This document shows, piece after piece, positions 22,376 to 38,931 of a stretch of 64,000 nt of DNA. The position numbers were made by a program, and so were the translations under genes. The DNA is from Rhizobium sp. SSA_523 (GTDB lineage: Bacteria; Pseudomonadota; Alphaproteobacteria; Rhizobiales; Rhizobiaceae): contig NZ_CP129381.1 of assembly GCF_030435705.1 (NCBI RefSeq), forward strand, positions 558,001-622,000. The letters run 5' to 3'. A model generated the notes under the pieces. That model was not told the DNA's origin. It ran no database searches and saw nothing but the letters and a program-made list of their open reading frames with translations. Numbering within the stretch: position 1 is the stretch's first letter; every line of letters starts with the position of its first letter.

Positions 22376-22733
22376 ATAGTATGTTCTAAATTGATAAGAA
22401 GGGCATAATCAAGAATTAACGACTCAGTTATTCTTGGCCAAGCCAGTCGAAAGCAATGCGGGAAAACAGCTGCAAGACATTCTGAAGTAATGGCGCAGCA
22501 CGCATCCGATGGTTGAAGCGGCGGCAGCGCTGCGTCTGGAGAGGGGTAGGTCCCGCTCCACCGCCGATAGGATCCCACCAGCCCCTGCCGAACTCCGACC
22601 TTTCCCCGATCCATCGAACGGACGGGCCGGTGTGGCAGGTCAAACTGTCGGTTCCGACTTCCGAATCTGGTCGATCAGACCATATCGATCGACACATTCC
22701 TATGGTTTTATGCCGGAAAACGGAGAGAGACAT
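22376..22733. other. Divergent regulatory region between the che operon and the arginase gene
   Basis: 358 bases without a gene. Bases 22340-22440 are AT-rich and contain the imperfect inverted repeat AAGAAT(T)AAC-GACTCA-GTTATTCTT at 22411-22435. Near the arginase start TGGTCGATCAGACCA at 22668-22682 forms a short palindrome. Promoters for both directions must lie here, but none matches the consensus well enough to call. Confidence 0.4.
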
Positions 22734-23654
22734 ATGCTTTGCAAATTGATCGGGGTACCGCTTCAGGATGGCGCTTCGCAACTGGGATGCGAAATGGGAC
22801 CAAGTGCTTTGCGTACGGCCGGCCTCGTTTCGGCGCTCAGTGAACTGGGCCATGAGGTTTCGGATCTCGGCAATCTGTCCCCGGCGTCCGCAAATGTCCC
22901 GGCGCATCCCAATTCGGCTCTGCGCAATCTGGACCGAATCAGCGGCTGGATCGCTGCCATTGCCGATGCGGCCTACCAGGCGAGCTTTGACGGGATGCCG
23001 ATCTTTCTCGGCGGCGACCATGCTTTGTCCGCCGGCAGCGTCGCCGGTCTGGCACGGCGCGCGGCAGAAGAAGGCCGGCCGCTCTTCGTCCTCTGGCTGG
23101 ATGCGCATACCGACTTTCACAGCCTCGACACCACTACGAGCGGCAATCTGCATGGCGTCCCGGTCGCCTATTTCACCGGGATGCCGGGCTTTGCCCCTTT
23201 CTTCCCTGAGCTTTCGCACCGCGTCGATCCGGCCCATGTCTGCATGGTCGGGATTCGCAGCGTCGATCCGGCGGAGCGGGCGGCGGTGAGCCAGACCGAT
23301 ATCACGGTGCATGACATGCGGGCCATTGACGAGCATGGCATAGGGCTTCTTCTGACGGAATTCCTGGAGCGGGTATCGGCCGCGGGCGGACTGCTGCATG
23401 TCAGCCTCGATGTCGATTTTCTCGATCCGGCCGTCGGTCCCGCCGTCGGAACCACCGTGCCGGGCGGCGCGACCTTCCGCGAGGCGCATCTGGTCATGGA
23501 GATGCTGCATGACAGCGGTCTCGTCACCAGCCTGGATCTCGTCGAGCTCAATCCCTTTCTGGACGAACGCGGCCGCACGGCAACGCTTCTGGTGGACCTG
23601 ACCGCCAGCCTGATGGGGCGCAAAGTCATGGACCGTCCGACCCGGCGCTATTGA
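22734..23654 (+). CDS. rocF: Arginase
   Basis: Mn-dependent hydrolysis of L-arginine to ornithine and urea, cytoplasmic; feeds ornithine, proline and nitrogen use. The 306-residue protein shows all family motifs: GCEMGPSALR near the start, GGDHALSAGS, DAHTDFH (first metal set) and SLDVDFLDPAVGPAVGT (second set), then LDLVELNPFLD. The ATG at 22734 is chosen because of GAGAGAG just before it; the frame stays open upstream without support. Length fits bacterial arginase. No ornithine cyclodeaminase follows; the gene stands alone and faces a convergent aldolase gene. Confidence 0.93.
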   Translation: MLCKLIGVPLQDGASQLGCEMGPSALRTAGLVSALSELGHEVSDLGNLSPASANVPAHPNSALRNLDRISGWIAAIADAAYQASFDGMPIFLGGDHALSAGSVAGLARRAAEEGRPLFVLWLDAHTDFHSLDTTTSGNLHGVPVAYFTGMPGFAPFFPELSHRVDPAHVCMVGIRSVDPAERAAVSQTDITVHDMRAIDEHGIGLLLTEFLERVSAAGGLLHVSLDVDFLDPAVGPAVGTTVPGGATFREAHLVMEMLHDSGLVTSLDLVELNPFLDERGRTATLLVDLTASLMGRKVMDRPTRRY

Positions 23655-23718
23655 GCGGAGCAGCCGGTCCTATAGAGCCCGGTTGATCGATGATTGGCCC
23701 GAGACATCGAGCTTGGCC

Positions 23719-24540
23719 TCAGTATGACGAGGCCTTGCCGCCGTGATAGGCTTCGCCGCGGGCGCGCAGCGCCTGGATCTCGCGAAAGCCGGCGAGTTCG
23801 GCAAGCCCGGCCTGACGCAGCAGCGCCACGTCATAGGGGCCGGGAATGAAGCGATAGCCGCGCTCGAGAAGATCATGCACATTGGCACCGGCATTGGGCA
23901 CAGTGCCGAGCACCTTGCCCGCCGCCAGTATGGCGCTCTCTGCCGCTTTTGCCAGCGCCTGCACCTCAGCATGCCCGGTCTGGCCCAGCAATCCCATCGA
24001 GGCGGCCAGATCATTGATTCCGATGAAAATGATATCGGCCCCCTCGATCGCCGCAATCTCGGCGGCATTCTCGATCGCCTGGACCGATTCCAGCTGGATG
24101 GCGATCAGCATTTCCGCATTCGCGCGGAAAGCGTAATCGGGCTCCGCGCCATAGCCGGACGCGCGCACGACCGAGGCTGCATAGCCGCGAATGCCTTGCG
24201 GCGGGTAGAGACAGGCCTTGACCGCGGCCTGCGCCAGCGCCGGAGTGTCCACCGAGGGGATCATCACCGACTGGACGCCGGCATCGGCGATCCGCTTCAG
24301 AAGCACGTGATCGTTCCAGCCGACGCGCAGCATGGCCGGGCTCGGCGTTGCCTCGATCGCCCGGAGCGCGTCCACGGCATCCTTCACCTCGCCGACCCCG
24401 TGTTCGTGATCGACCAGAAGAAAATCGAAGCCGACATGGCCGAGGATTTCGCCATTGGTCGGCGAACCGCCCGCGACCCAGCAGCCAAAAAGCGTTTCGC
24501 CGGCAGCAAGCCGCGCCTTGATCGAATTGGTCTTGAACAT
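23719..24540 (-). CDS. HpcH/HpaI family class II aldolase (second copy near the SQ cluster)
   Basis: Metal-dependent aldolase that splits 2-keto-3-deoxy acids to pyruvate and an aldehyde. In 273 residues: FGCWVAGGSPTNGEI, the DHEHG segment, GIRGYAASVVRASGYG, and the metal ligands in IAIQLESV and FIGINDLAASMG. ATG 24540 has GGAG about 7 bases upstream; the frame stays open further. It lies 53 bases downstream of glycerol kinase on the same strand, and a paralogue is the KDSG aldolase at 30771-31574. It could be a back-up sulfoquinovose aldolase or serve another sugar acid; I cannot decide. Confidence 0.8.
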   Translation of the reverse strand: MFKTNSIKARLAAGETLFGCWVAGGSPTNGEILGHVGFDFLLVDHEHGVGEVKDAVDALRAIEATPSPAMLRVGWNDHVLLKRIADAGVQSVMIPSVDTPALAQAAVKACLYPPQGIRGYAASVVRASGYGAEPDYAFRANAEMLIAIQLESVQAIENAAEIAAIEGADIIFIGINDLAASMGLLGQTGHAEVQALAKAAESAILAAGKVLGTVPNAGANVHDLLERGYRFIPGPYDVALLRQAGLAELAGFREIQALRARGEAYHGGKASSY

Positions 24541-24593
24541 CAGCAACTCCAAAAAAGGGCAGGCGGGCAATGTCGTCCGTTCGGGACCCTCGG

Positions 24594-26087
24594 CTATTTG
24601 CCAAAGGCCAAGGTGCATTTCACAGCCGAATCCCAGCCTTTCAACAGAGCGCTGCGTTCGCCCGAATTCATTGTCGGAGAAAACTCCCGCTCGCGGTGCC
24701 AATCCGCCGCGAACCCGGCGCGATCCGGCCAGATTCCGGCCCCGTGGCCAGCGAGCCAGGCCGCTCCCAGCGCCGTCACTTCGGCCGAGGCTGACCGGTC
24801 GACGGCAATGCCGAGAATATCGGCAAGCCTTTGCATCGTCCAGTCATTGGCCGACATGCCGCCATCGACTCGCAGCAAGGTATCGGCCGGTCCCGGCCAG
24901 TCCTTGCGCATGGCGCCGAGCAGATCATGGGTCTGGAAGCAGACCGATTCCAGCGCCGCCCGGGCAAATTCCGCCGGGCCGGTATTGCGGGTCATGCCGA
25001 ACATGGCGCCACGCGCCTCCGCATCCCACCAGGGCGCGCCGAGCCCGGTGAAGGCCGGCACAAGATAGACACGCTGGCCGGGATCGGCCTTGGCCGCCAG
25101 CTCGGCGGTCTCGGATGCCTTGCCGATCATCTTCAGCCCGTCGCGCAGCCATTGGACCGCCGCACCGGCAATGAAGATCGAGCCTTCCAGGGCATAATGC
25201 GTGTCATTGCCCAACCGGTAAGCAATCGTCGTCAGCAGGCGGTTTTTCGAGGCGACGCGGTCGGCGCCGGTATTGAGGAGCGCAAAACAGCCCGTCCCAT
25301 ACGTCGATTTCATCATGCCCGGCGTGAAACAGGCCTGCCCGATGACTGCCGCCTGCTGATCCCCCGCCACGCCGCGAATGGCGATGCTTGCGCCAAAGAT
25401 CTCGGGATCCGTTTCGCCGAACGCGTCAATATTGCTGAGGATCTCCGGCATCATGCTGCGCGGGATGTCGAACAGCGAGAGAAGCTCGTCATCCCAGGCC
25501 ACCGTGCCGATATTGCACAGCATGGTGCGCGAGGCGTTCGTGACGTCGATGACGTGCCGCTTGCCGCCGGTCAGCTTGTAGATGAGCCAGCTGTCCACAG
25601 TGCCGAAAGCGAGATGACCGGCTTGTGCTGCCTCGCGCGCACCCTCGACATTGTCCAGGAGCCAGGCGATCTTGGTTGCGGAGAAATAAGGGTCGATCAG
25701 CAGACCGGTGCGCTCGGCCACGATGTCGGAATGACCCTCGGCGCGCAGCCTTGCACAATGATCCGAGGTGCGGCGATCCTGCCAGACAATCGCCCGATGA
25801 ATGGCTTTTCCGCTGCGGCGGTCCCAGACCAGTGCCGTCTCGCGCTGGTTGGTGATGCCGAGCGCGGCGATCTGCTGTGCCGTGACACCCGCCGCTGCGA
25901 TTGCCTTGCGGGCAGTCTCGACGGTCGAGGTCCAGAGATCGTCCGCCTCGTGTTCGACCCAGCCTGACTGCGGGAAATGCTGGGTGAACTCCATCTGGCC
26001 GACGCCGCGGCTCTGATAGGCGCGATCGAAGATGATCGAGCGGGTGGATGTGGTGCCCTGGTCGATGGCGAGAATGAAGTCCTTCAT
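24594..26087 (-). CDS. glpK: Glycerol kinase
   Basis: Phosphorylates glycerol to glycerol 3-phosphate with ATP. The 497-residue protein starts [17 protein letters not shown], the FGGY-type phosphate motif, and continues with [31 protein letters not shown], and [10 protein letters not shown] near the second domain. Length equals that of E. coli GlpK. No glpF, glpD or glpR is beside it. It is on the same strand as the sulfoquinovose cluster, 224 bases after the exporter gene; since sulfoquinovosidase acting on sulfoquinovosyl glycerol releases glycerol, a role in that pathway is a fair inference. Confidence 0.95.
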
Positions 26088-26124
26088 GCGACAAGATCCG
26101 TTTTCATCATGACATCAGCGTGTG

Positions 26125-26143
26125 CGGCAGCGCCATGCTGCCG
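26125..26143 (-). promoter_or_regulatory. Hairpin in the glycerol kinase upstream region
   Basis: CGGCAGC and GCTGCCG form a perfect 7-bp stem around GCCAT, about 40 bases before the glpK start. It could lie in the 5' untranslated region. No function is proposed. Confidence 0.35.
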
Positions 26144-26243
26144 AAAATCAGGGAAGGAAGGATAAGGTGCGCTGCAGCCGGCGCAAATTTCCGCCACTGC
26201 TCCCCGGCTCCCCCCGTCGAGACTGTTTTGGTAGCATAGATGC

Positions 26244-26264
26244 GGGCTTGCAAAAGCCTTTTTT
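26244..26264 (+). terminator. Rho-independent terminator-like hairpin facing rightwards
   Basis: GGCTT-GCAA-AAGCC followed by six T on the plus strand. The stem is only 5 bp, but the tail is the best in the window. The flanking genes both run leftwards, so it does not end any recognised gene; it might end a short plus-strand RNA started within 26090-26240, though no promoter is evident. Confidence 0.4.
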
Positions 26265-26311
26265 GACGGTGAAGCCATGCCTTCAGTGTCCTTTCTTGCG
26301 CGAGGCCGGTT

Positions 26312-27094
26312 TCAGGATCCCATCTCCAGCGCAGACTTCAGCACGGATAGAGCGGCGGGAAGCAGAAGCGAGAGGCCCGACAGGAACAGGAGGAGAAAGG
26401 CCGCTCGCCGCATTGCCACTGGTGACAGGGGAGGCGGAAAGCGGCGCGCCAGTGTCGTGGCGGCGATGACGACCGGAATGGCGGTCAGCGCCCACCAGAA
26501 CGAGGCGGAGGGAAGTTCGCCGCTTCCGGCGACGATGGCGAGGCGAATGACGGAATTGATGGCGAAAATTGCCACAAGCGTCTCGCGCACCGCGCTCGGC
26601 TTCAGCGGCTGGCGATAGAAATGATAGATCAAAGGCGGGCCGGATGTGGAGAACAGTCCGCCCATCAGGCCCGCTACGGCGCCGAAGCCGGCAAAGGATG
26701 AAGCACCCGAGGTCTTGGGAAGGACCTGCGGCTTCAGCGAGAGCTGGATGCTCGACGTGATGATCAGCGCGCCCAGCACAATCTTCAGCCAGTCCAGCGA
26801 GGCTGACACCATCAAGCCGAGCAGCCAGTAGCCGATGCCGAGGCAGAGCAAGCTCGCCGCCAGCGCCGGCCAGAACTGTCTGAATGCAATATCGCGCCAG
26901 CCTTTTGCGAGAACCTGGGCCGCATTGACGATCACCAGGATACTGACCAGCACGGCGGCGTCGGGCAGGGGCAGGATCCCCGTCAACCCGACCCCGCCCA
27001 TCATGATGAGGCCGAGCGCAAAGCCCGTCAGGGTCTGCGTATAGGCAGCGATGAAGGCGATGCCGAGAAGACCCGCCAGCGCGTGCGGGCCCAT
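26312..27094 (-). CDS. TauE/SafE family permease, likely sulfonate exporter of the SQ cluster
   Basis: Integral membrane protein of 260 residues with about eight hydrophobic helices arranged in two repeats; AYTQTLTGFALGLIMMG in the first and GLMGGLFSTSGPPLIYHFYRQ in the second are TauE/SafE signatures. Relatives export sulfite, sulfoacetate or 3-sulfolactate. ATG 27094 lies 2 bases after the sulfoquinovosidase stop, so it is co-expressed with that gene and is best read as the exporter of the C3-sulfonate end product. The frame is open upstream to 27286 but that part lies inside the sulfoquinovosidase gene. Confidence 0.85.
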   Translation of the reverse strand: MGPHALAGLLGIAFIAAYTQTLTGFALGLIMMGGVGLTGILPLPDAAVLVSILVIVNAAQVLAKGWRDIAFRQFWPALAASLLCLGIGYWLLGLMVSASLDWLKIVLGALIITSSIQLSLKPQVLPKTSGASSFAGFGAVAGLMGGLFSTSGPPLIYHFYRQPLKPSAVRETLVAIFAINSVIRLAIVAGSGELPSASFWWALTAIPVVIAATTLARRFPPPLSPVAMRRAAFLLLFLSGLSLLLPAALSVLKSALEMGS

Positions 27095-27096
27095 GA

Positions 27097-29094
27097 TCAG
27101 ATCGTCCGCAGGGCGTCGAACAGGGCAGTCTCCGCCGCACCCGCGCGGTAGAAGACCGGCGGCGAACCGAGCGGCGAGGCGATCTCGATCTCCCGTCCGC
27201 CGGCATGCTTCTCTCCCGACCAGACATGCACCCAGGTCTCGTTCTTCGGCAGATAGACGCGGCGCGCCGTATCGCCCGCCTGCCATACAGGTGCAACCAG
27301 CAGGTCCCTGCCGTAAAGGTAGGCGTCCTGGATCGTGTAGGTGTCACGATCATCTTCATGATGCAGGAAAAGCGGGCGCTGGACGGGAAGACCGGTCGAA
27401 GCCGCCTCTGCCGACAGCGCCTTCAGATATGGGGCGAGATGAACATAGATGGAGGTCATCCGGGCAAAATGGGCAAGAACCTCCGGATCCTGGTCGATTT
27501 GCACATTGTCCAGCGGGCGGTTGCCTTCGTGACTGCGCATGACCGGCGTGAACGCCGCCATTTCGGCCCAGCGCATCAAGAGTTCCGGCGTCCGGACATT
27601 GCCGAACAGGCTCGTATAACCGCCGATATCGGAATGGTGATAGGCATTGCCAAGTAGACCGGAGGAGAGCGCGCCGCACATGACGGTCACCAGACCATCA
27701 TGGCGGGAGAAGTCGACGGATTGGTCGCCGCCCCACAGGAGAGGGCAATGGGCCTGGACGCCGGTAAAGCCTGCACGCATGAAGAACAGTGCTTCCCCCG
27801 TCTGGCCCCGGCTTTCAACGGCACGGGCATTCACTTCCGCCCAGAGCGTCGGCCAGGCATTGTGCATCAGCTTGGCATCGACGCCATTGGCGAGCTTGAC
27901 GTCGATCGGCAGATATTCGCCGAAATCCGCCATCCAGCCGGACAGGCCGAAGTCCAGCATGTTCTTGCCCAGCACCTCTTCCGCAAACCAGGCAGCTGCC
28001 TCGGAATTGGTGAAGTCGACGACCCCGCAGTCGAACTCGCCGAAATCCACAAGTGCCGTGTGCCCCGCCTCGTCCTTGGCAAAATAGCCTCGTTCTTCGG
28101 CGGCCGGATACAGTGTACCGTCGACGCAGATATAGGGATTGACATAGCCGAGGAAGCGGATTCCCTCGTCGCGCAGAGCGGCAATCTTCTGCCGGAGATG
28201 CGGGTAGCGCTCCTCATTGGCGCGCCAGTCCCAGAACAGGCGTGCGCCGAACGAGGTGTGGCGCAAGCCGATCCAGTCCTCGCACCACAGGCCCGAAACC
28301 TTGACACCCGCCTGCCGCATCGCCTCCATGCGTGTGAAAGAGTTGTCGCCGTCCTTCAGGCCAAGGATGGCACCGGAATAGACCCAGTCAGGCAGTTGCG
28401 GCTGGCGGCCGAAACGCTCGGACAGCTGCCCCACCAGCGCGACAAAGGTCGGGGCGGCAAAAAATTCCAGACGCTCGGGAATGGCCCAGACCTCGATTTC
28501 GTGGAAATCCGGGCGGCGGAAGTCGAAGACCAAATAGGCGGTCGTTTCGACATGGACCGCATATCTGCGCGAGGAGAGAAAGGTCGGTTGCGGATAATTG
28601 GTGTTGTAGTAGTCGCCGCCGGCGCGACCTGTCACATCGGATTTGAAGGTGATCTCGCTGGTCTTGTCACGACCCACGCCGGGTTCGGACGTCCAGAGGG
28701 GAAAACGGCGGCCGCGCATGTCGAAATAGGACATTTGCTCGCCACCGCCCCAGACATGTTCATCGCTGTCGGCGGTCAGACGCAACCAGACGCGGTTGAT
28801 TTTCGCATCCAGCGCCTCGGTCACCAGATGGTGGCCGTCAAGGGTGATGACGAAGCGGGGATCCAGACCCTTGGCGGCAGAGAAGCTGAGGCGGTTTCCC
28901 TCGATCTCGACATGGACCAGCGCGGTCCGTTCGACGACATAGTCATCGATGTCGAAATTGCCGCGATACATGTCCATCCGCTCTTCGCCGTGCCCGACGA
29001 ACAGGGCTGGGGATGCATCGGTGTGACGCAGGATTTCGCGGCCATCAAGGGTGAGCGAAAAGCCGCCGGGTATGAGGTCAAGCTGCATGGTCAT
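27097..29094 (-). CDS. yihQ: Sulfoquinovosidase, GH31 family
   Basis: Retaining glycosidase that frees sulfoquinovose from sulfoquinovosyl glycerol. The 665-residue protein is close to E. coli YihQ over long stretches (GYVNPYICVDGTL, FGEFDCGVVDFTNSEA, GWMADFGEYLP, HHSDIGGYTSLF, MRSHEGNRP). The nucleophile is D390 in WMADFG and the acid/base D457 in WGGDQSVD. Residues that read the sulfonate are K247, E272, R285, W288 and Y493, the K-E-R-W-Y set of the Agrobacterium-type enzyme, where E. coli has Q-Q-R-W-Y. No signal peptide, so it is cytoplasmic and acts after uptake. Generic alpha-glucosidase is thereby unlikely. Confidence 0.93.
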   Translation of the reverse strand: MTMQLDLIPGGFSLTLDGREILRHTDASPALFVGHGEERMDMYRGNFDIDDYVVERTALVHVEIEGNRLSFSAAKGLDPRFVITLDGHHLVTEALDAKINRVWLRLTADSDEHVWGGGEQMSYFDMRGRRFPLWTSEPGVGRDKTSEITFKSDVTGRAGGDYYNTNYPQPTFLSSRRYAVHVETTAYLVFDFRRPDFHEIEVWAIPERLEFFAAPTFVALVGQLSERFGRQPQLPDWVYSGAILGLKDGDNSFTRMEAMRQAGVKVSGLWCEDWIGLRHTSFGARLFWDWRANEERYPHLRQKIAALRDEGIRFLGYVNPYICVDGTLYPAAEERGYFAKDEAGHTALVDFGEFDCGVVDFTNSEAAAWFAEEVLGKNMLDFGLSGWMADFGEYLPIDVKLANGVDAKLMHNAWPTLWAEVNARAVESRGQTGEALFFMRAGFTGVQAHCPLLWGGDQSVDFSRHDGLVTVMCGALSSGLLGNAYHHSDIGGYTSLFGNVRTPELLMRWAEMAAFTPVMRSHEGNRPLDNVQIDQDPEVLAHFARMTSIYVHLAPYLKALSAEAASTGLPVQRPLFLHHEDDRDTYTIQDAYLYGRDLLVAPVWQAGDTARRVYLPKNETWVHVWSGEKHAGGREIEIASPLGSPPVFYRAGAAETALFDALRTI

Positions 29095-29099
29095 GCTTT

Positions 29100-29864
29100 C
29101 TAGTTCTGGGTCAGTCCGGCATCGACGACGAAATTGGCGCCCGTGCAGCCATTGCTTTCGTCGGAACCGAGGAAGAGAGCCATGCGCGCGACATGGCTGG
29201 CATCCAGGCGGAATTTCAGCGCCTGGAGATCGATGAACTGCTGGTTCTGCTCCGGGCTGGTCCAGAGCTTCAACTGGCGTTCGGTAACAATGGCACCCGG
29301 CACGATGCAGTTGACGCGGATGCCATCGGCACCCAGTTCACGCGCCAGCGTCTTCGTCAGGCCGATAATGGCGGCTTTCGACGTCGTGTAGCCGACCATG
29401 CCCGGCCGCCCGCGCATGAAGGAGATGGAGCTGAACATGATGACGGATCCGCCGCCATTCTGCCGCATGCTTCTGCTTACCGCCTGAGTGACGAAGAACT
29501 GATGGTCCAGATTGAGCGCCAGCGCGCGACGCCAGTAATCCGGCTCCACCTCGTCCATGGCATGGCGATCATCCTTGCCGGCATTGTTGAGCAGGACGGA
29601 GACCGGACCATGATCGGCTTCAATCCGCTCGACCGTGGCGCGGGTGGCGTCAATATCGGTCAGGTCGCAGGAATAGAAGTTCGCGCCACTTGCCGCGGCC
29701 GTGGCAGCGCCGGCGGTCTGGTCGATATCGATGAAGGAGACCCGCGCTTGCTGCGCGCGGTAGGCCTTGACTATTTCTTCGCCGATGCCCGATGCGCCGC
29801 CGGTGATCAGCACATGGCGGTTTGCAAGCGATTGGTAGCGGACGGTATCATAAGGTGCGGACAT
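29100..29864 (-). CDS. SDR dehydrogenase, probable sulfoquinovose 1-dehydrogenase
   Basis: First step of the sulfo-Entner-Doudoroff route: NAD(P)-dependent oxidation of sulfoquinovose to sulfogluconolactone. A classical SDR of 254 residues: TGGASGIG cofactor motif, NNAGKDD, catalytic Ser in MFSSISFM, YTTSK catalytic Tyr-Lys, and PGAIVTERQ after it. The acidic D in SFIDIDQ suggests NAD preference. ATG 29864 is used; a GTG at 29879 overlapping the lactonase stop is an alternative. Placement between lactonase and sulfoquinovosidase supports the role; sequence alone would only say SDR. Confidence 0.85.
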   Translation of the reverse strand: MSAPYDTVRYQSLANRHVLITGGASGIGEEIVKAYRAQQARVSFIDIDQTAGAATAAASGANFYSCDLTDIDATRATVERIEADHGPVSVLLNNAGKDDRHAMDEVEPDYWRRALALNLDHQFFVTQAVSRSMRQNGGGSVIMFSSISFMRGRPGMVGYTTSKAAIIGLTKTLARELGADGIRVNCIVPGAIVTERQLKLWTSPEQNQQFIDLQALKFRLDASHVARMALFLGSDESNGCTGANFVVDAGLTQN

Positions 29865-29875
29865 GGATCTGTGTC

Positions 29876-30769
29876 TCACGCGTCGAGTTTGAAGTGCGGT
29901 TTTGCCAGGCCGGCGACGTCTGTGCGCATGGCGAACAGCGCTCCGGACAGCGGATATTGCGCGAGTTCCTCAGCCGGCCGGCCAATGCTGGCACTGGTGC
30001 AATAAAGGCTGCGCAGGTCCGGGCCGCCGAAGGTGACCATGGTCGGGCATTTCACCGGCACGGGATATTCCGCCAGCAGCCGACCGTCCGGCGCATAGCG
30101 CTGTACGCGGCCCCCTTCGAACAGGGCGGTCCAATAGCATCCCTCTTCGTCGACAGCGCCGCCGTCCGGCCGTCCCTTGTCGGTTTCGGAGCCGAATGTC
30201 GCAAACAGCTGGCGATTGCCCGCTTCACCTGTCATCACGTCGTAATCATAGGTATAGAGCGCGTAACGCAGAGTGTCGGAATGGTAGAGGCGGCGGCCGT
30301 CGGGGGAAAAGGCGACGCCATTGGAGGTCAGCAAGCGATCGGCGAGAACCGTCAGGCCGCGATGGTCGAACCGGTAGAGGCTCGCGATCGCGCGTTCCCG
30401 CGTCTCGTCAACCGTGCCGGCGATGAAACGTCCGGCAGGATCGACCATGCCGTCATTGAAGCGGCTGATCGACTGATCCTCGGGATTGTCCGCCAGTTTG
30501 CGGAGGCGCTCGCCTTGCGGCGAGAGGAGCCAGAGGCCGGAGCGCAGGCCGGCGATGAAGCCGCCACCCTCGGCCAGGCCGATGCAGCCGACCTCTTCCG
30601 GCAAGTTCAGCGTCTGCAGCGCGCCGTCGGCGGGATCAAAGCGGTGAATACGGCTCTTCTTGATGTCGACGAAAAACAGGACCTGTTCGTCGACGGACCA
30701 GAGAGGGCATTCACCGAGGTCGCAGCGCATGTACAGGACGGGAACGAAAGGACTTTCCACGTTGGCCAT
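29876..30769 (-). CDS. SMP-30 family lactonase, probable 6-deoxy-6-sulfogluconolactonase
   Basis: Opens sulfogluconolactone to sulfogluconate. Propeller protein of 297 residues with the metal set E20 (LGECPLW), N150 (LLTSNGVAFS) and D202 (RPDGGAVD), plus N105 in SRFNDG. It differs clearly from the other SMP-30 protein at 11618. The ATG is separated from the aldolase stop by one base, so it is inside the tight operon. Function is inferred from family and position between aldolase and dehydrogenase. Confidence 0.87.
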   Translation of the reverse strand: MANVESPFVPVLYMRCDLGECPLWSVDEQVLFFVDIKKSRIHRFDPADGALQTLNLPEEVGCIGLAEGGGFIAGLRSGLWLLSPQGERLRKLADNPEDQSISRFNDGMVDPAGRFIAGTVDETRERAIASLYRFDHRGLTVLADRLLTSNGVAFSPDGRRLYHSDTLRYALYTYDYDVMTGEAGNRQLFATFGSETDKGRPDGGAVDEEGCYWTALFEGGRVQRYAPDGRLLAEYPVPVKCPTMVTFGGPDLRSLYCTSASIGRPAEELAQYPLSGALFAMRTDVAGLAKPHFKLDA

Positions 30770-30770
30770 G

Positions 30771-31574
30771 TCAATAGGCCGCGGTGGGGGCGACGGCCGG
30801 CTTGTCCACGCCTTTCATCTGCCCGAGCCACTCATTCGCGCGGCCGGTCATCATGGCGATGTCCGAGGCAATGGCGGCATAATCATAGCCATAGCCGATG
30901 AAGCGCTTCACCATATCGGGATTGGGACCGACAATGCCGATCGGCTTGCCGGCAGCATGCGCATCCTTGGCGGCCTTTTCAATCAGCGCCTGGACCTCCG
31001 GATGGGCGATATTGCCGATATGGCCCATGGCAGCCGAAAGGTCGCCGGGTCCGACGAACAGCGCATCAATGCCCTCCACCGAAGCGATCTCCGGCAGCCG
31101 CTCGATCGCTTCGGGCGTTTCCAGCTGCACGATCGTGCAGACATCGTCATTGGCCGTCTTCAGATAGTTTTGAATAGTGCCGAAACGCGAACCGCGATGC
31201 ACGGCGGCGACGCCGCGAATGCCCTGCGGCGGGTAGCGCGTGTAGGACGCGGCGGCCTTTGCCTCTTCCGCCGTCTGCACAAAGGGCAGCATTACGGTGC
31301 GGGTGCCGGCATCCATGCAGCGTTTGACCAGGACCTGATCGTTCCAGGCCAGCCGTACGACGGCATCCGCCGGCGTACAGCCGATGGCGCGCAGGATATG
31401 CGCAAGATCGGATACCTCGATCGGCACATGCTCCATATCGACGACGAGAAAGTCGAAGCCGGCATAGCCGAGCGCTTCGGCACTCGCCGGTGCTGCAGCC
31501 ATCAGCCAGGTTCCGAGCGGCGTGGCGCGGTTCTTGTCGGTGAGCCAGGACTTGAAGGGGTTCAGTGTGCTCAT
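30771..31574 (-). CDS. HpcH/HpaI family aldolase, probable KDSG aldolase
   Basis: Splits 2-keto-3,6-dideoxy-6-sulfogluconate into pyruvate and 3-sulfolactaldehyde. The 267 residues have FDFLVVDMEHVPIEV (catalytic base region), YPPQGIRGVAAVHRGSRFG, and metal ligands in IVQLETPE and FVGPGDLSAAMGH, the layout of HpaI/GarL aldolases. AAGGA precedes the ATG by about 8 bases. It lies 14 bases after the dehydratase stop, the order expected for a sulfo-ED operon. A paralogue lies at 23719-24540. Confidence 0.87.
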   Translation of the reverse strand: MSTLNPFKSWLTDKNRATPLGTWLMAAAPASAEALGYAGFDFLVVDMEHVPIEVSDLAHILRAIGCTPADAVVRLAWNDQVLVKRCMDAGTRTVMLPFVQTAEEAKAAASYTRYPPQGIRGVAAVHRGSRFGTIQNYLKTANDDVCTIVQLETPEAIERLPEIASVEGIDALFVGPGDLSAAMGHIGNIAHPEVQALIEKAAKDAHAAGKPIGIVGPNPDMVKRFIGYGYDYAAIASDIAMMTGRANEWLGQMKGVDKPAVAPTAAY

Positions 31575-31588
31575 GGACTCATCCTTTT

Positions 31589-33325
31589 TCAGAAAATGAC
31601 AGGGTCCGGCACCTTGGCCGATCCGCTGAGGAAGTCGAAATCGCAGCCTTCATCCGCCTGGCTGACATGGCTCTGGTAAAGCGCTGCAAAGGAGCGTTCA
31701 TAGATGCGCGCCGTCGGCTTCCAGACCGCCCTGCGGCGCTGCAATTCATCATCATCGACCCGCATGTTCAGCGTGCCGGCCGTGACATCGAGCTCGATCA
31801 GGTCGCCGGTCCGCACCAGAGCGAGCGGCCCGCCAACGGCGGCCTCCGGCGTCACATGCAGAATGCAGGTGCCGTAATGGGTGCCGCTCATCCGACCGTC
31901 GCAGATGCGCACCATATCGCGCACACCCTGTTTCAGCAGTTTCTTGGGGATCGGCAGATTGCCCCATTCCGGCATGCCGGGGGCGCCAACCGGGCCCGCA
32001 TTGCGCAGGATGATGACGGTATCTTCAGTCACGTCGAGATCCGGATTGTCGAGCGTCTTGTTCATCGTGGCCGGATCGTCAAAGACAAGCGCCGGACCGA
32101 CATGCTGCAGGAATTTCGGATTGGCGGCGGAGGATTTCATCACCGCCCCATTGGGCGCAAGGTTGCCGCGCAGCACTTCCAGCGTCTTGCCCCTGGAGAG
32201 CGGCACGACCGGATCCTCCTCGCCGCGGATGATGTCGTCGTTCCAGCAATCCGCATTGGCGATGTTTTCGCCGAGCGTCTTGCCGTTCACCGTCGGCCGT
32301 TCGAGATGCAGGTGAGGGGAAAGCTTTTTGAGAAGCGCGTTGAGGCCGCCGGCGAAATAGAAATCTTCCATCAGATATTCGCCGGACGGAAAGACATTGG
32401 CGACCACCGGAACCCTGCCCGCCATGGCGGACATGTCGTCGAGGGTCAGGCTGATGCCGGCGCGCCTTGCCATGGCGATCAGATGGACCGCAGCATTCGT
32501 CGATCCCCCCATGGCCATGTAGGCGACGAGACCGTTTTCGAAGCTTTCCTTGCTCAGAATGTCCGAAGGCTTCAGATCCTCCCAGACCATTTCGACGATG
32601 CGCTGGCCACACAGCGAGGCCATGCGCGGGTGACCGGAATCCACCGCCGGGATGGACGAGGCGCCCGGCAGGGTCATGCCCATGGCGTCGGCGATCGACG
32701 TCATGGTGGAGGCCGTGCCGATCGTGTTGCAGGTGCCCGCCGAGCGCGTCATGCGGCTTTCAAGATCCACCCAGTCATCCTTGGTGATGTTGCCGGCGCG
32801 CAATTCGTCCCAGTATTTCTTCGTATGCGTTCCCGCGCCGGTCTTGATGCCGCGCCACTGGCCGTTGGCCATGGGCCCGGCCGGGCAATAGATGACGGGC
32901 AAATCCATCGAGAAGGCGCCCATCAACAGGCCGGGAGTGGACTTGTCGCAGCCGCCGAGAAGAACGGCCCCATCAATGGGGTGGGAGCGCAGCAATTCCT
33001 CGCATTCCATGGCAAGGAAGTTCCGGTAGAGCATGGTCGTCGGCTTGACCATGACTTCACCCACCGACAATGCCGGCATTTCCACGGGGTAGCCGCCGGC
33101 CTGCCACACGCCGCGCTTGACGGCTTCCGCACGATCGCGCAGATGCGCGTGGCATGGGCTCATCTCGCTCCAGGTATTGATGATGCCGATGACAGGCTTT
33201 CCCATGAACTCGTCGCGGCGCATGCCCATCTGCTGCGTGCGCTGGCGATGCGCGAAACCACGCATGTCATCGGAGGCGAACCAGCGCTGGCTGCGCAGTT
33301 CCGACAGGTCTCTTCTCTTGGTCAT
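31589..33325 (-). CDS. IlvD/Edd family dehydratase, probable 6-deoxy-6-sulfogluconate dehydratase
   Basis: Converts sulfogluconate to 2-keto-3,6-dideoxy-6-sulfogluconate. 578 residues with the [2Fe-2S] ligand cysteines C58 (MSPCHAH), C126 (LLGGCDKSTPG) and C199 (AGTCNTIGTAST), spacing as in arabinonate- and xylonate-type dehydratases of rhizobia. Other motifs: GGSTNAAVHLIA and CDGRMSGTHYGTCILHV near the C-terminus. It stands between permease and aldolase with gaps of 9 and 14 bases. Dihydroxy-acid dehydratase of branched-chain synthesis is less likely because of the setting and of the sugar-acid-type motifs. Confidence 0.9.
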   Translation of the reverse strand: MTKRRDLSELRSQRWFASDDMRGFAHRQRTQQMGMRRDEFMGKPVIGIINTWSEMSPCHAHLRDRAEAVKRGVWQAGGYPVEMPALSVGEVMVKPTTMLYRNFLAMECEELLRSHPIDGAVLLGGCDKSTPGLLMGAFSMDLPVIYCPAGPMANGQWRGIKTGAGTHTKKYWDELRAGNITKDDWVDLESRMTRSAGTCNTIGTASTMTSIADAMGMTLPGASSIPAVDSGHPRMASLCGQRIVEMVWEDLKPSDILSKESFENGLVAYMAMGGSTNAAVHLIAMARRAGISLTLDDMSAMAGRVPVVANVFPSGEYLMEDFYFAGGLNALLKKLSPHLHLERPTVNGKTLGENIANADCWNDDIIRGEEDPVVPLSRGKTLEVLRGNLAPNGAVMKSSAANPKFLQHVGPALVFDDPATMNKTLDNPDLDVTEDTVIILRNAGPVGAPGMPEWGNLPIPKKLLKQGVRDMVRICDGRMSGTHYGTCILHVTPEAAVGGPLALVRTGDLIELDVTAGTLNMRVDDDELQRRRAVWKPTARIYERSFAALYQSHVSQADEGCDFDFLSGSAKVPDPVIF

Positions 33326-33334
33326 GGCGTTAAC

Positions 33335-34189
33335 TTATCCCTTGATGCCGCCCGCCGTGAGGCCGGAGACGACACGCTCCTGAAAGATCACGATCAGGAT
33401 GGCGACAGGCACGATGCCCACCACCAGAGCGGCGGAAATGACGGGCCAGGGGAAGGCGAATTCGCCCTGGTAGAGCTGGATGCCGACGGGCAGGGTGCGC
33501 AAAGCCGGATTGGAATTGAAGGACAGGGCCAGCAGGAATTCGTCCCAGGCATTGACGAAGGCGAGAATGCCGGCGGTGAAAACGCCCGGCGCACAAAGCG
33601 GAACGACAACCTTGAACAAGGCGCCAAGGCGCGTGCAGCCGTCGATCATCGCGGCGTTCTCAAGGTCTCGCGGAATGCCCTCGAAGAAGGATACCAGCAT
33701 CAAGGTGCAGACCGGCAGCGACAGGACGGTATAGGGCAGGATCAAGGCGATCCAGGTGTTGAGAAGGTTCAGCGTCCGCATGATCTCGAACAGCGGAACC
33801 AAGAGCGTGACGAGCGGAAAGGTCGAGACGGCGATGATTGCCGACAGGATCAGGCCGCGATAGCGCAGGTTTAGCCTTGCAATGGCGTAAGCCGCAAGGA
33901 CGGCCACCAGAAGCGTCGTGCAGGTCGAGAGCAGCGCCACCATGAAGCTGTTGAACAGGAAGATGTGCAGCGGCTGATCGGAAAAGGCCTGCATATAGTT
34001 GGCAACCGTCGGCGCATGCGGGAACCAGGTGATCGGCTTGACCGTCAGCTCGGCTTCCGTCTTCAGCGAGGTGAAGAGGATCCAAAGTGCGGGAAACATG
34101 CCGTTCACCAGCAGTATGGATGCCGCAATCAGGCGCAGCGGCTTGCCGGTGAAGAAGGATTGGGGGCCGGAGGCTGTTACCTGGCTCAT
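33335..34189 (-). CDS. ABC sugar permease, MalG type (CUT1)
   Basis: Inner-membrane subunit of the sulfoquinovose-cluster importer. 284 residues, six predicted helices, N-terminal helix at about 16-36 (LIAASILLVNGMFPALWIL). The EAA loop, ENAAMIDGCTRLGALFKVVVPLCAPG, is of the MalG class. The gap to the MalF-type gene is 3 bases. Cargo inferred from the neighbours: sulfoquinovose or sulfoquinovosyl glycerol. Confidence 0.9.
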   Translation of the reverse strand: MSQVTASGPQSFFTGKPLRLIAASILLVNGMFPALWILFTSLKTEAELTVKPITWFPHAPTVANYMQAFSDQPLHIFLFNSFMVALLSTCTTLLVAVLAAYAIARLNLRYRGLILSAIIAVSTFPLVTLLVPLFEIMRTLNLLNTWIALILPYTVLSLPVCTLMLVSFFEGIPRDLENAAMIDGCTRLGALFKVVVPLCAPGVFTAGILAFVNAWDEFLLALSFNSNPALRTLPVGIQLYQGEFAFPWPVISAALVVGIVPVAILIVIFQERVVSGLTAGGIKG

Positions 34190-34192
34190 GGC

Positions 34193-35125
34193 TTAGTCCT
34201 TGGTCCGGATGATGCGGAGATAGACGACGGTGACACACATGGAGAGCACGAACATCACCACGGCGAGGGCCGAACCGTAACCGAGATCGAGGAAGGAGAC
34301 GGTGTTCTGGTGAATGTACATGGCGAGCGTGGCGGTCGAGGTGCCCGGCCCACCGCCGGTCATCATGTAGGGAATGTCAAAGGTCTGCAGGGCGGTGATG
34401 GTGCGGAAGATCAGGGCCACGACGATGGCCGGCTTCAGGAGCGGCAGCGTGATTTCGAAAAACTGGCGAATGCGTCCGGCGCCGTCCACATCGGCCGCTT
34501 CGTAGAGCGAGCGGGGGATGGTCTGCAGGCCGGCCAGGATGATCAGGGCCATGAAGGACGAGGTCTTCCAGATGATGGTCAGACAGATCGCCGCGAAAGC
34601 CAGGTTGGGCGAGTTGAACCAGATCACCCCCTCGATGCCGAACCTTGCAAGCACATCATTGACCACGCCATATTCGGAATGGAAGAACCATGCGAAAATC
34701 AGGCCGGCAAAGGACAAAGGAAGCGCCCAGGGGATCAGCAGCGACAGGCGCACCGGCCATTGCGTGCGAAACGGCAGATTGGCAAGCAGCGCCAGGGCCA
34801 TGCCGACAACAAGAGCTCCGGGCACCGTGATGAGGGTGATGAGAACCGTGTTCCAGGTCGTTTCCCAGAAGACGGGATCGGTAAACATCAGCTCGTAGTT
34901 TTCCAAGCCGACGAATTCCGCCGGCAGCCCGGAGGTCAGCGACAGCGAAAAGAAGCTTGTATAGCCGAGCCGCAGCACCGGATAGACGATGATCAGCAAG
35001 AGCAGGATCGCCGTCGGCGCCAGGAGGAGGACTGCAAGCGCCCGATCGCTCAGGTCCAGCCAGCGGGACCATGCCGGCGGCTGCTTCTCGATCCTGTCGG
35101 TGATGGAAAGTGTTGAGGGTGTCAC
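34193..35125 (-). CDS. ABC sugar permease, MalF/UgpA type (CUT1)
   Basis: Partner permease, about 310 residues, with six membrane helices; the first is [22 protein letters not shown]. The EAA loop reads [24 protein letters not shown] prefer the GTG at 35125, which has GGGAG 8 bases upstream, over the ATG at 35146, which has no ribosome site. The binding-protein gene is upstream with a strong hairpin in the 117-base or longer gap. Confidence 0.88.
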
Positions 35126-35210
35126 CGCTGCAGCTCCCGCATGCAAGACGAAATCAAAAGATGAAGATGAGCAAAGGCGACCGACAATCGATCAATCCCT
35201 GCGCATCGGC

Positions 35211-35241
35211 TCCGGAAGCGGTCGGACCGGCCGCTTCCGGA
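35211..35241 (-). promoter_or_regulatory. Intercistronic hairpin after the CUT1 binding-protein gene
   Basis: TCCGGAAGCGG at 35211-35221 pairs perfectly with CCGCTTCCGGA at 35231-35241 around a 9-base loop, 22 bases after the binding-protein stop. There is no T-run. Location and form match hairpins that stabilise the binding-protein mRNA and lower read-through into permease genes. Confidence 0.65.
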
Positions 35242-35263
35242 TGTTCGAGAGGCGATGCCGCGC

Positions 35264-36514
<1,251 letters not shown>

Positions 36515-36560
36515 TTACGTCCTGTACGCGGGCCCCGGTAACTCCCCCGCGCGCGGAGTA

Positions 36561-37637
36561 TCATGCGATGGCGCGTTCGCTCGCGGCATCGAAGAGGTGA
36601 ACTTTCGACGGATCGAGGCCGAGCCGCAAGGTGGTGCCCACCTTGGGACGCATATCGGGCGGCATGCGCGCCGTCAGCATCTCGCCGCCGATGAGGAAAT
36701 GGACCAGCGTGTCGGAGCCCAGCGGCTCGACGACCTGCACATCCGCCGTCAGCGTCATCGCAGGATCGGCAAGCGTCACGAAATGTTCCGGACGGATGCC
36801 GACGATCACCTCGCGGCCGTCTTCCATGTTCTGCTTGCCGGCGGCGAGCATCGACAAGGGAATGCGGTCGCCATTGGCAAATTCCAGGGACCCGGCAGCG
36901 ACCTTGGCGCGCGCGAAGTTCATGGCCGGCGATCCGACGAAACCACCGACAAAGACGCTTTGCGGCTTGTTGTAGACGTCATCGGGCGTGCCGACCTGTT
37001 CGATGTCGCCACCGCGCAGGATGACAATCCGGTCCGCCAGCGTCATCGCCTCCACCTGATCATGGGTTACGTAGATGATGGTGGTGCCGAGCTGCTGGTG
37101 GAGGCGCTTGATCTCGGTGCGCACCTGACCGCGCAGCTTGGCATCGAGGTTGGACAGCGGCTCGTCAAAAAGGAAGACCTGAGGCCGGCGCACGATCGCG
37201 CGGCCCATGGCCACGCGCTGTCTCTGGCCGCCGGAGAGCTGGCCGGGCCGACGATCCAGCAAATGACCTATGCCCAGCATCTCGGCGGCTTCGTTGATGC
37301 GGCCTTCCGCATCCTTCATGCTGACGCCGCGCACCTTGAGGCTGAAGCCCATGTTCTCGCGGACGGTTTTGTGCGGATAAAGGGCGTAATCCTGAAACAC
37401 CATGGCGATGTCGCGCTCACGGGGCGCCAGACGGTTGACGACGCGATCGCCGATACGGATCTCTCCGTCGGTAATGGCCTCAAGCCCGGCGATCATGCGC
37501 AAGGTTGTGGATTTGCCACATCCGGACGGACCGACGAACACGACGAACTCGCCATCCTCGATCTCGAGATCGATTCCCTTGACGATCCGCAAAGCGCCAT
37601 AGCTCTTATCAAGCTTGCGAAGGCTAACCGAAGCCAT
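36561..37637 (-). CDS. ABC transporter ATPase, MalK/UgpC type (CUT1)
   Basis: ATPase of the importer, 358 residues from ATG 37637, which has GGGAGG 6 bases upstream; the longer frame to 37676 lacks one. Motifs: Walker A GPSGCGKST, signature LSGGQRQR, Walker B VFLFDEPLSNLDAKLR, switch His in YVTHDQ, and a C-terminal TOBE region (RPEHF onward) as in MalK and UgpC. First gene of the long minus-strand operon; its promoter and LacI-type operator lie at 37691-37718. Confidence 0.93.
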   Translation of the reverse strand: MASVSLRKLDKSYGALRIVKGIDLEIEDGEFVVFVGPSGCGKSTTLRMIAGLEAITDGEIRIGDRVVNRLAPRERDIAMVFQDYALYPHKTVRENMGFSLKVRGVSMKDAEGRINEAAEMLGIGHLLDRRPGQLSGGQRQRVAMGRAIVRRPQVFLFDEPLSNLDAKLRGQVRTEIKRLHQQLGTTIIYVTHDQVEAMTLADRIVILRGGDIEQVGTPDDVYNKPQSVFVGGFVGSPAMNFARAKVAAGSLEFANGDRIPLSMLAAGKQNMEDGREVIVGIRPEHFVTLADPAMTLTADVQVVEPLGSDTLVHFLIGGEMLTARMPPDMRPKVGTTLRLGLDPSKVHLFDAASERAIA

Positions 37638-37690
37638 TCCTACCTCCCGACCGCCGGACGCCATATCCGGCCGCATTCCAATTGGACGCC

Positions 37691-37718
37691 ATCATAGCGC
37701 TACGATTTCAAAATGCAA
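37691..37718 (-). promoter_or_regulatory. Promoter and LacI-type operator of the sulfoquinovose operon
   Basis: On the minus strand TTGCAT (37718-37713), a 16-base spacer and TATGAT (37696-37691) form a near-consensus promoter. The palindrome ATC-R-TAGCGCTA-Y-GAT (plus strand 37691-37706) fills the spacer end and covers the -10 box. A central GCGC palindrome is typical of LacI-family operators, and a matching site lies before the lacI-type gene. Repression by occlusion is the natural reading. Confidence 0.7.
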
Positions 37719-37820
37719 TCCGGCTCTTTCTGCCTTTTCACAATTTACCTACCGTCTCCGATCTGTCGAAATTTGAGCAGAAAAAACATGAGCTTCCTTA
37801 TGTCAGGCTACAATTAGTCG

Positions 37821-37849
37821 TTGCCCTGAGGCGACCGAAAGGATAGATT
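37821..37849 (+). promoter_or_regulatory. Putative promoter of the lacI-type gene
   Basis: TTGCCC at 37821-37826, a 17-base spacer and TAGATT at 37844-37849. Start of transcription would fall near 37856, inside the operator at 37854-37867. Confidence 0.45.
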
Positions 37850-37853
37850 TCGC

Positions 37854-37867
37854 ATCGTAGCGCTATG
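37854..37867 (+). promoter_or_regulatory. Second LacI-type operator, autoregulatory position
   Basis: ATCGTAGCGCTATG is the exact reverse complement of 37693-37706, with the shared core TAGCGCTA. It ends 11 bases before the start codon of the regulator gene, so the regulator probably represses itself. The two sites are about 160 bases apart, which would allow DNA looping. Confidence 0.7.
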
Positions 37868-37878
37868 CGGAGACTGGT

Positions 37879-38931
37879 ATGTCGGAGGATGTCAGATCGG
37901 ATTTGGAGCGGCCTGTGCGGCAGCGGCGCAAGATGCAAAGCGTCACGATGACCGATGTCGCCGATTACGCAAAAGTCTCGCCATCCACCGTGTCGCTCTA
38001 TCTGCGGCGGCCCGAGGCGGTTTCCGCAAGCGCCGGCAGCGCCATAGCGCGCGCCATCGACAAGCTGAATTACGTGCCGAACCTCGTCGCCGGCGGTTTG
38101 GCGGCAGCCTCCTCGCGCGCCGTCAGCATCATCGTTCCGTCGGTCCGCAATGCCTTCTTTGCTGAAACCGTCGCGGCCATGCAGACGGCACTGCGCAAGG
38201 AAAGGCTGCAGGTCATCCTCGGCCATACGGAATATGACGAGCGCGAGGAGGAGGATCTGGTGCGCACCGCGCTCTCCTGGGCGCCGGCCGCCATCGTGGT
38301 GACGGGTCTTTCGCACAGCGAGACCACACGCCGGATGCTGGGCAATGCCAAGGTTCCGGTAATCGAGATCTGGGAACTGGGCGGTCCGCAGATCGATGCG
38401 GCGATCGGTTTCCATCATGATCAGGTGGGCGCTGCGGCGGCCCGCCATCTCCTGCAGCAGGGAAGGCGCCATCTGGCCTTTCTCGGCGCCCGCATGCACG
38501 AGGACCGCCGTGCCAAACTCCGCTGCGATGGCTTCATGGCGACCGCGCGGGACGCCGGTGTCGTCGCCGAGGTCGTGCAACATCCCGATGCCTCCTCGGC
38601 CGATGTCGGCGCCATGCTCTTGTCGGAGACGATGCAGCAGCTGCCGCAGACCGACGGGATCGCCTGCTCGAATGATCACGTCGCGCTTGGTGTCCTGTTC
38701 GAATGCCAAAGAATGAGCATTGCCGTGCCGGAGAGACTGGCGACGATCGGCTTCGGAGACCTGAGCTTCAGTGCCGCCTGCAACCCGCCGCTCAGCACCA
38801 TTCGGCCCTCCGGCGACCTGATTGGCCGCGAGGCCGCACGCCTGATCCTGGAGCAGCTTGCGGGGCGGGCACCGCAGCCGCAAACGATGATCGACACACG
38901 CTTCACCCTTCTGCATCGGCGCAGCAGCTAG
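37879..38931 (+). CDS. LacI family transcriptional regulator of the sulfoquinovose cluster
   Basis: 350 residues. Helix-turn-helix and hinge: VTMTDVADYAKVSPSTVSLYL, continuing through NYVPNLVAGGLAAASSRAV, although the hinge lacks the usual LAR start. The periplasmic-binding-protein-like ligand domain follows (VSIIVPSVRNAFFAETV, FLGARMHEDRRAKLRCDGF, GIACSNDHVALGVLFEC). GGAGA lies 6 bases before the ATG. It is divergent from the importer operon with matching operators on both promoters. Inducer unknown; sulfoquinovose or a derivative is expected. Confidence 0.92.
   Translation: MSEDVRSDLERPVRQRRKMQSVTMTDVADYAKVSPSTVSLYLRRPEAVSASAGSAIARAIDKLNYVPNLVAGGLAAASSRAVSIIVPSVRNAFFAETVAAMQTALRKERLQVILGHTEYDEREEEDLVRTALSWAPAAIVVTGLSHSETTRRMLGNAKVPVIEIWELGGPQIDAAIGFHHDQVGAAAARHLLQQGRRHLAFLGARMHEDRRAKLRCDGFMATARDAGVVAEVVQHPDASSADVGAMLLSETMQQLPQTDGIACSNDHVALGVLFECQRMSIAVPERLATIGFGDLSFSAACNPPLSTIRPSGDLIGREAARLILEQLAGRAPQPQTMIDTRFTLLHRRSS

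Follow-up and report, generated by a model that had tools for sequence, protein, structure and literature searches.

The DNA examined is a window of 64,000 nucleotides from Rhizobium sp. SSA_523 (NZ_CP129381.1, positions 558,001 to 622,000), part of a 1.54-Mb contig in a genome of 5.48 Mb in four contigs. It carries what is very probably a sulfo-Entner-Doudoroff (sulfo-ED) operon for sulfoquinovose (SQ) and sulfoquinovosyl glycerol (SQGro) in which the gene for sulfolactaldehyde (SLA) dehydrogenase is missing. The minus strand encodes an ATP-binding cassette (ABC) importer, consisting of an ATPase of the UgpC/MalK type (36561..37676; Pfam, and above the cut-off of the NCBIfam UgpC subfamily), a SmoF-like sugar-binding protein (35264..36499) and two permeases (34193..35146 and 33335..34189; both Pfam BPD_transp_1). 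The enzyme block follows on the same strand with an IlvD/Edd dehydratase, likely a sulfogluconate dehydratase (31589..33325; Pfam PF00920; 87-92 % identity in four syntenic loci), an HpcH/HpaI aldolase, likely the 2-keto-3,6-dideoxy-6-sulfogluconate (KDSG) aldolase (30771..31574; Pfam PF03328; 87-96 % identity in four syntenic loci), an SMP-30 lactonase, likely a sulfogluconolactonase (29876..30769; Pfam SGL, 273 bits), a short-chain dehydrogenase/reductase (SDR), likely an SQ dehydrogenase (29100..29864 from its likely start, the open reading frame (ORF) extending to 29879), a GH31 sulfoquinovosidase (27097..29094) and a TauE/SafE permease, likely a C3-sulfonate exporter (26312..27094, 260 amino acids from the likely start, ORF to 27286; Pfam TauE; 59-71 % identity in four syntenic loci). 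A LacI-family regulator is divergently encoded on the plus strand (37879..38931; Pfam LacI and Peripla_BP_3; 87 % identity to the syntenic gene of Allorhizobium pseudoryzae), and two operator-like sites lie between it and the ATPase gene (37691..37706 and 37854..37869). These ten minus-strand genes and the divergent lacI had been listed in an original prediction made from the letters of this DNA, and ORFs and Pfam confirmed them in their places. The gaps in the enzyme block, given there as 1-15 bases, measured 14, 1, 11, 5 and 2 bases on ORF coordinates with likely starts, hence 1-14 bases. The extent proposed for the cluster, 26312..38931, holds for the listed genes and is too short at its lower end, where a glycerol kinase (24594..26087; TIGR01311, 681 bits, cut-off 590), located at the SLA dehydrogenase position of related operons, and a second HpcH/HpaI aldolase (23719..24540 from its likely start, ORF to 24702; Pfam PF03328) continue on the same strand. 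The same gene order was present in four of four plasmid loci compared, a recurrence by which the arrangement is not due to chance.

Three of the encoded proteins, the binding protein, the SDR and the GH31 enzyme, are by their relatives and residues diagnostic for sulfoquinovose, a sulfur-containing sugar found in plant membranes and a very abundant organosulfur compound. The binding protein scored 681 bits to the sulfoquinovosyl-glycerol binder SmoF (PDB 7nbz) and 223 bits to the next solved relative; its close relation to the solved SmoF places it with the SmoF-type proteins, and SQGro is its predicted ligand. For the SDR, 280 bits were obtained to the SQ 1-dehydrogenase PDB 9gwu, compared with 209 bits to the next solved relative. 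This dehydrogenase is that of the sulfo-ED pathway of Pseudomonas putida SQ1, to which the operon is likened through this enzyme only. The substrate contacts of the Pseudomonas enzyme PpSQDH, Asp99, Arg101, Arg152, Arg154 and Gln198 (PMC12133307), were transferred after allowing for a shift of 13 in the residue numbers of the PDB chain, derived from the catalytic residues, and five of five are kept in the window as Asp103, Arg105, Arg156, Arg158 and Gln202. The equivalents of Asp99, Arg101, Arg152 and Gln198 were invariant in all 85 alignment rows, that of Arg154 was retained in 75 of 85, and the two next-best solved SDRs had neither arginine of the window pair 156/158. An SDR of the SQ dehydrogenase type with its sulfonate-binding arginines is hence encoded in the operon. 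The best solved relatives of the GH31 enzyme were PDB 5ohy (1203 bits) and 5ohs (1201 bits), whose deposited name is 'Alpha-glucosidase yihQ' and whose origin is presumably Agrobacterium; the YihQ sulfoquinovosidase 5aed gave 741 bits. When aligned to the solved enzymes, Lys247, Glu272, Arg285, Trp288 and Tyr493, which we take to be the sulfonate pocket (KERWY), and Asp390 and Asp457, presumably the two catalytic aspartates, were invariant in 71 of 71 rows, so that the pocket and the aspartates of a sulfoquinovosidase are present; a literature search for the KERWY motif gave no paper. The best relatives, the retained sulfonate contacts and the synteny together support the sulfo-ED assignment, the dedicated importer and the YihQ-type sulfoquinovosidase of the original prediction.

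The prediction had also claimed that the gene families match each step of the sulfo-ED pathway. This stood for four enzymes and failed for the terminal conversion of SLA to sulfolactate, the gene for which is missing from the cluster and has no close orthologue in the genome. A tblastn search for the SLA dehydrogenase (RlGabD/SlaB) gave no match across the window, and the nearest relative in the genome has 49 % identity. An aldehyde dehydrogenase gene follows tauE in Rhizobium leguminosarum Vaf-108, Rhizobium sp. WSM4643 and Shinella sp. WSC3-e; as annotated in WSC3-e and WSM4643, the two genes share 4 bases at the tauE end. The WSM4643 protein was taken as an SLA dehydrogenase because it scored 1073 bits to PDB 8c54 over 489 of 489 residues and has all eight checked residues of RlGabD (PMC10599462). 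The sulfo-ED pathway, its Rhizobium form and SLA dehydrogenase are already known (PMC12890257, PMC9594981, PMC10599462), and one published search definition of sulfo-ED lists four core enzymes only (PMC13372026). In gene order, a comparison by which the prediction was to be checked, the operon matches the Rhizobium and Shinella loci. The two Rhizobium sulfo-ED loci on which the comparison with that genus rests (Vaf-108 and WSM4643; SRDI565 is the strain of the literature) agree with the window in all eleven genes, in their order and in the divergent lacI, and their proteins are 59-92 % identical to those of the window; the gene directly behind their tauE is that of SLA dehydrogenase, whereas the window has a glycerol kinase and a second HpcH/HpaI aldolase instead. 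The best-ranked plasmid record, from A. pseudoryzae (97 % of the query at 81.7 % DNA identity), shares this tail: tauE is followed by glycerol kinase and second aldolase and not by SLA dehydrogenase, the gene order is the same, no difference in gene content was found, and the proteins are 71-96 % identical. By the criterion used, A. pseudoryzae has one operator-like site, the window two. Judged from its genes, the operon is a lineage-specific form of a largely ordinary sulfo-ED operon with the last gene replaced.

The distribution of these tails was followed in relatives collected by their SQ dehydrogenase (80 of 128), to which the window and four plasmid loci were added. Tails were counted in the 45 loci in which tauE and enough sequence past it were available, three loci cut by contig ends having been dropped; several of the genomes are drafts, and as the loci are related by descent, the counts represent non-independent events. 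SLA dehydrogenase followed tauE in 24 of the 45 loci, in 20 as the only one of the two genes and in 4 together with glycerol kinase; 11 loci had glycerol kinase only and 10 had neither. Nine of the 11 glycerol-kinase-only loci belong to the group of ten genomes that includes the window's, and the kinase was present in nine of nine loci of this group; the tail of one further locus (L019) is unseen, its sequence ending before the sulfoquinovosidase. The second aldolase was found in eight of the nine, among them the window, with 61-74 % identity in the other seven, and was not found in L018. The remaining two glycerol-kinase-only loci are from Microvirga and stand on separate branches; they show tauE-glpK without SLA dehydrogenase and then a further ORF, which from its printed start we assume to resemble glycerol-3-phosphate dehydrogenase. 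In a midpoint-rooted tree of 61 loci that combine a dehydratase, an SDR and a sulfoquinovosidase in operon direction, with the three contig-end-cut loci labelled as lacking SLA dehydrogenase, the window's group was monophyletic (local support 0.997) and nested among loci bearing SLA dehydrogenase. L019 and the locus of G204 (L098, tail seen) stand outside this tree, and their genomes were assigned to the group by similarity and synteny. By parsimony the nesting suggests that the missing gene reflects a loss in this lineage.

Relocation of the SLA dehydrogenase gene within the genome was rejected as far as a close orthologue is concerned, none above 66 % identity occurring in the ten genomes of the group: the best matches were at 49-66 % in ten of ten. 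The one plasmid of A. pseudoryzae searched gave a best relative of 55 %. Eight genomes and one plasmid chosen for their operon-borne SLA dehydrogenase gave best matches of 79-95 %, as expected. No relative reaches 60 % in the window's genome (49 %) or in G299 (55 %). Two arginines of RlGabD have been proposed to bind the sulfonate (PMC10599462); the 49 % relative in the window's genome (L002) keeps one of the two. It adjoins ORFs that by eye we presume to resemble ectoine breakdown genes.

According to the proposed mechanism, SQGro would enter via the SmoF-like ABC importer and be split by the sulfoquinovosidase into SQ and glycerol. SQ would be oxidised by the SDR, hydrolysed by the lactonase and dehydrated by the IlvD/Edd enzyme, and cleavage by the HpcH/HpaI aldolase would yield pyruvate and SLA. 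TauE would export a C3-sulfonate, and LacI would repress the operon from the palindromic sites. The SLA dehydrogenase gene at the operon end would have been lost in the lineage, with glycerol kinase and the second aldolase in its place, and the final step on SLA would fall to an enzyme whose gene lies elsewhere. The glycerol kinase, which would be co-transcribed with the operon, probably captures the glycerol half of SQGro, a role in which we have somewhat more confidence than doubt. Which C3-sulfonate a degrader releases decides which organisms feed next. When an aerobic soil bacterium carries a sulfo-ED operon, sulfolactate is readily taken to be its product, and it is the compound whose excretion the original prediction proposed to detect; for this lineage such an inference is unsafe.

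Several observations weigh against the operon reading as given here. The dehydratase exceeds, with 932 bits, the NCBIfam cut-off for L-arabinonate dehydratase (882 bits). The glycerol kinase begins 224 bases past tauE, compared with gaps of 1-14 bases in the enzyme block, and no operator match adjoins it, so that it may be a separate unit; a scan of the tauE-glpK gap region (23600-26500) detected 0 promoters and 4 terminator-like sites against a shuffle mean of 2.1 and was uninformative. The two Microvirga loci having glycerol kinase use a different importer. Ten further loci, nine of them from Microvirga, have neither gene at the locus itself; the missing SLA dehydrogenase after tauE is thus not confined to the window's group. 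Finally, eight of the ten group genomes carry a 63-66 % relative of SLA dehydrogenase, so most may have a stand-in; this relative also occurs in many other Rhizobiaceae.

With regard to its fate, SLA may be oxidised by another enzyme, reduced or otherwise handled. We consider only tentatively that the lineage dropped SLA dehydrogenase, refitted the operon for the glycerol of SQGro and disposes of SLA by an undescribed route, which may lead through a core aldehyde dehydrogenase that has been recruited, through a reductase whose gene is not linked to the operon or through a reaction catalysed by the second aldolase. The gap is well defined: ten genomes have no assigned gene for a needed step, and two of them (G000, the window's, and G299) also lack any relative of the known enzyme at 60 % identity. 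Of the specific proposals, takeover of SLA oxidation by a core aldehyde dehydrogenase fares best and still falls short of being probable. The candidate in the window's genome lies at C4:2177583-2179115; elsewhere in the group, in eight genomes, it could be the 63-66 % relative. Among 12 near-full-length aldehyde dehydrogenase matches in the window's genome (a 13th was partial), the C4 enzyme is the sole keeper of both proposed RlGabD sulfonate arginines, and it recurs at 90-100 % identity in ten of ten group genomes while passing E 1e-150 in three of eight controls. In the human enzyme this arginine pair holds succinate semialdehyde (PMC10599462), and its presence can therefore not separate an SLA dehydrogenase from a succinate-semialdehyde dehydrogenase. 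Moreover, the gene is a core gene of the genus: 56 of 57 genomes have it, three of which (G047, G140, G259) gave no SQ dehydrogenase match, so its link to the operon may be one of ancestry only. It has at most 41 % identity to the RlGabD type, lies away from the operon and has no operator match, and five of its ten group matches show one in-frame TGA.

Rather unlikely is an unlinked SLA reductase, with which the operon would yield dihydroxypropanesulfonate (DHPS) and not sulfolactate. The precedent, reported in 2026, is the Vibrio sulfo-ED cluster of V. splendidus JLJ25, which likewise has no SLA dehydrogenase, carries an SLA reductase in its stead and gives DHPS (PMC13372026). A close SLA dehydrogenase is missing here, too; however, neither SLA enzyme was found in the window's cluster, which holds no reductase-like gene of that type. 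With E. coli YihU as query, only paralogues of 25-39 % identity were returned in 18 of 18 genomes, alike in those with and without SLA dehydrogenase, so that the search does not discriminate. A further candidate, the route via DHPS 3-dehydrogenase (HpsN), was rejected as a general answer. The window's genome has an HpsN-like gene (C3:1330830) with 369 bits to 8v35 versus 261 bits for the best histidinol dehydrogenase. In the other 17 genomes, only the controls G305 (63 %) and G312 (43 %, 360 bits) exceeded the 272-299 bits of the other nine group genomes. A third PF00815 gene resembled histidinol dehydrogenase. HpsN is described as acting on R-SLA, SLA dehydrogenase on S-SLA (PMC11382572). The HpsN-like gene (C3:1330830-1332137) stands beside a CUT1-type importer and LacI, SnoaL and cupin genes in an unexplained small-molecule locus. 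To our knowledge, its neighbours include no recognised DHPS family. With respect to sulfite release after sulfolactate, no xsc was above the cut-off in the genome (best 292 versus 676 bits), and the single PF20629 match reached 400 bits to the galactarate dehydratase model, under the cut-off of 731. SuyB would, we assume, belong to PF20629, and the negative result for that family is therefore weak. The sulfofucose degrader P. wurundjeri is likewise reported to have no recognised SLA dehydrogenase and nevertheless to accumulate sulfolactate (PMC12421959).

An extra ORF of 264-316 amino acids lies between aldolase and lactonase in 26 loci (e.g., L043 from Microvirga and L078 from a gammaproteobacterial metagenome-assembled genome) and is absent from the window. 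It was rejected as an SLA reductase, having been judged from printed starts to be presumably aldose 1-epimerase-like.

The lactonase (SGL), dehydratase (PF00920) and aldolase (PF03328) correspond to their sulfo-ED steps at family level only. A rival reading is a generic Entner-Doudoroff locus for sugar acids, e.g., of L-arabinose, galactose or glucose. In its favour, the NCBIfam models above cut-off were L-arabinonate dehydratase, the name annotated for the dehydratase of the Shinella locus too, UgpC ATPase and GH31 alpha-glucosidase, and the SDR was named D-xylose dehydrogenase below cut-off. Such a locus is nevertheless highly improbable: the best solved relatives of binding protein and SDR are SQ-specific by wide margins and that of the GH31 enzyme is YihQ, Arg152 and Arg154 of SQ dehydrogenase are both kept here and both missing from the two next solved SDRs, and the syntenic Rhizobium loci carry SLA dehydrogenase. 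An operon for sulfofucose (6-sulfogalactose), whose pathway in Paracoccus also employs an SDR, a lactonase and an HpcH/HpaI aldolase, is scarcely credible either, for it uses SfcF of the D-galactonate dehydratase family (PF13378/PF02746) and a PF00920 dehydratase was reported to be missing from the Paracoccus genome (PMC12421959), whereas the operon's dehydratase is a PF00920 protein and not one of the SfcF family, and it stands beside a sulfoquinovosidase and a SmoF-like binder. The sulfo-ED operon for SQ and SQGro also differs from the smo operon of Agrobacterium, with which it has the SmoF-type binding protein and, presumably, the sulfoquinovosidase type in common. The smo operon contains a sulfoquinovose monooxygenase and follows a different chemistry; no monooxygenase was detected by Pfam among the operon genes of the window. 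The glycerol kinase tail was not named in the titles or abstract openings found; subscription literature lay mostly outside the search, and no novelty is claimed.

LacI is likely a local repressor. The 16-bp palindrome-like site ATCGTAGCGCTATGAT (37691..37706), before the importer gene, is likely its operator, and a second copy with two mismatches to the pattern (37854..37869) lies 163 bases off beside the lacI start; both are predicted LacI binding sites. Papers found on LacI-type regulation and operators for sulfoquinovose concern E. coli, judged by title. Sites with at least 14 of 16 positions occurred in 50 of 51 divergent lacI-ATPase gaps, and pairs with at least 12 of 16, 118-180 bases apart, in 40 of 51 loci, among them only four of the ten loci of the window's group (the window, L020, L022 and L025). 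In the window's genome, exactly one match with at most one mismatch was found, the site before the importer gene, and a reversed control pattern gave zero matches in 14 genomes. Within the window alone, the scan was not significant, with three matches at up to three mismatches, a number reached by 9 of 100 shuffles, so that the weight for an operator rests on conservation.

Partial or altered gene sets were encountered at other loci. Three Bradyrhizobium loci (L062, L076, L080) have LacI, importer, SQ dehydrogenase and sulfoquinovosidase together; in the stretches fetched, no counterpart of the dehydratase, KDSG aldolase or lactonase described here was present. In five loci of Jiella/Aurantimonas (L058, L060, L067, L071, L075), SQ dehydrogenase and sulfoquinovosidase stand beside a quite different ABC importer; a lactonase was present in four of the five, and no dehydratase or KDSG aldolase match was obtained. 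The Shinella locus L013 encodes a second binding protein (20011-21228), 60 % identical to the SmoF-like one, just past the sulfo-ED operon. Overlapping the start of the window, at C3:546001-560000 of the same genome (L097), is a gene set that by eye resembles ectoine breakdown and includes a relative of succinate-semialdehyde dehydrogenase. Downstream of the operon, an arginase gene (22509-23654, above the TIGR01229 cut-off) is convergent with the second aldolase, and an arginase relative occurs at most 9 kb after the sulfoquinovosidase in seven of the eight other loci of the window's group.

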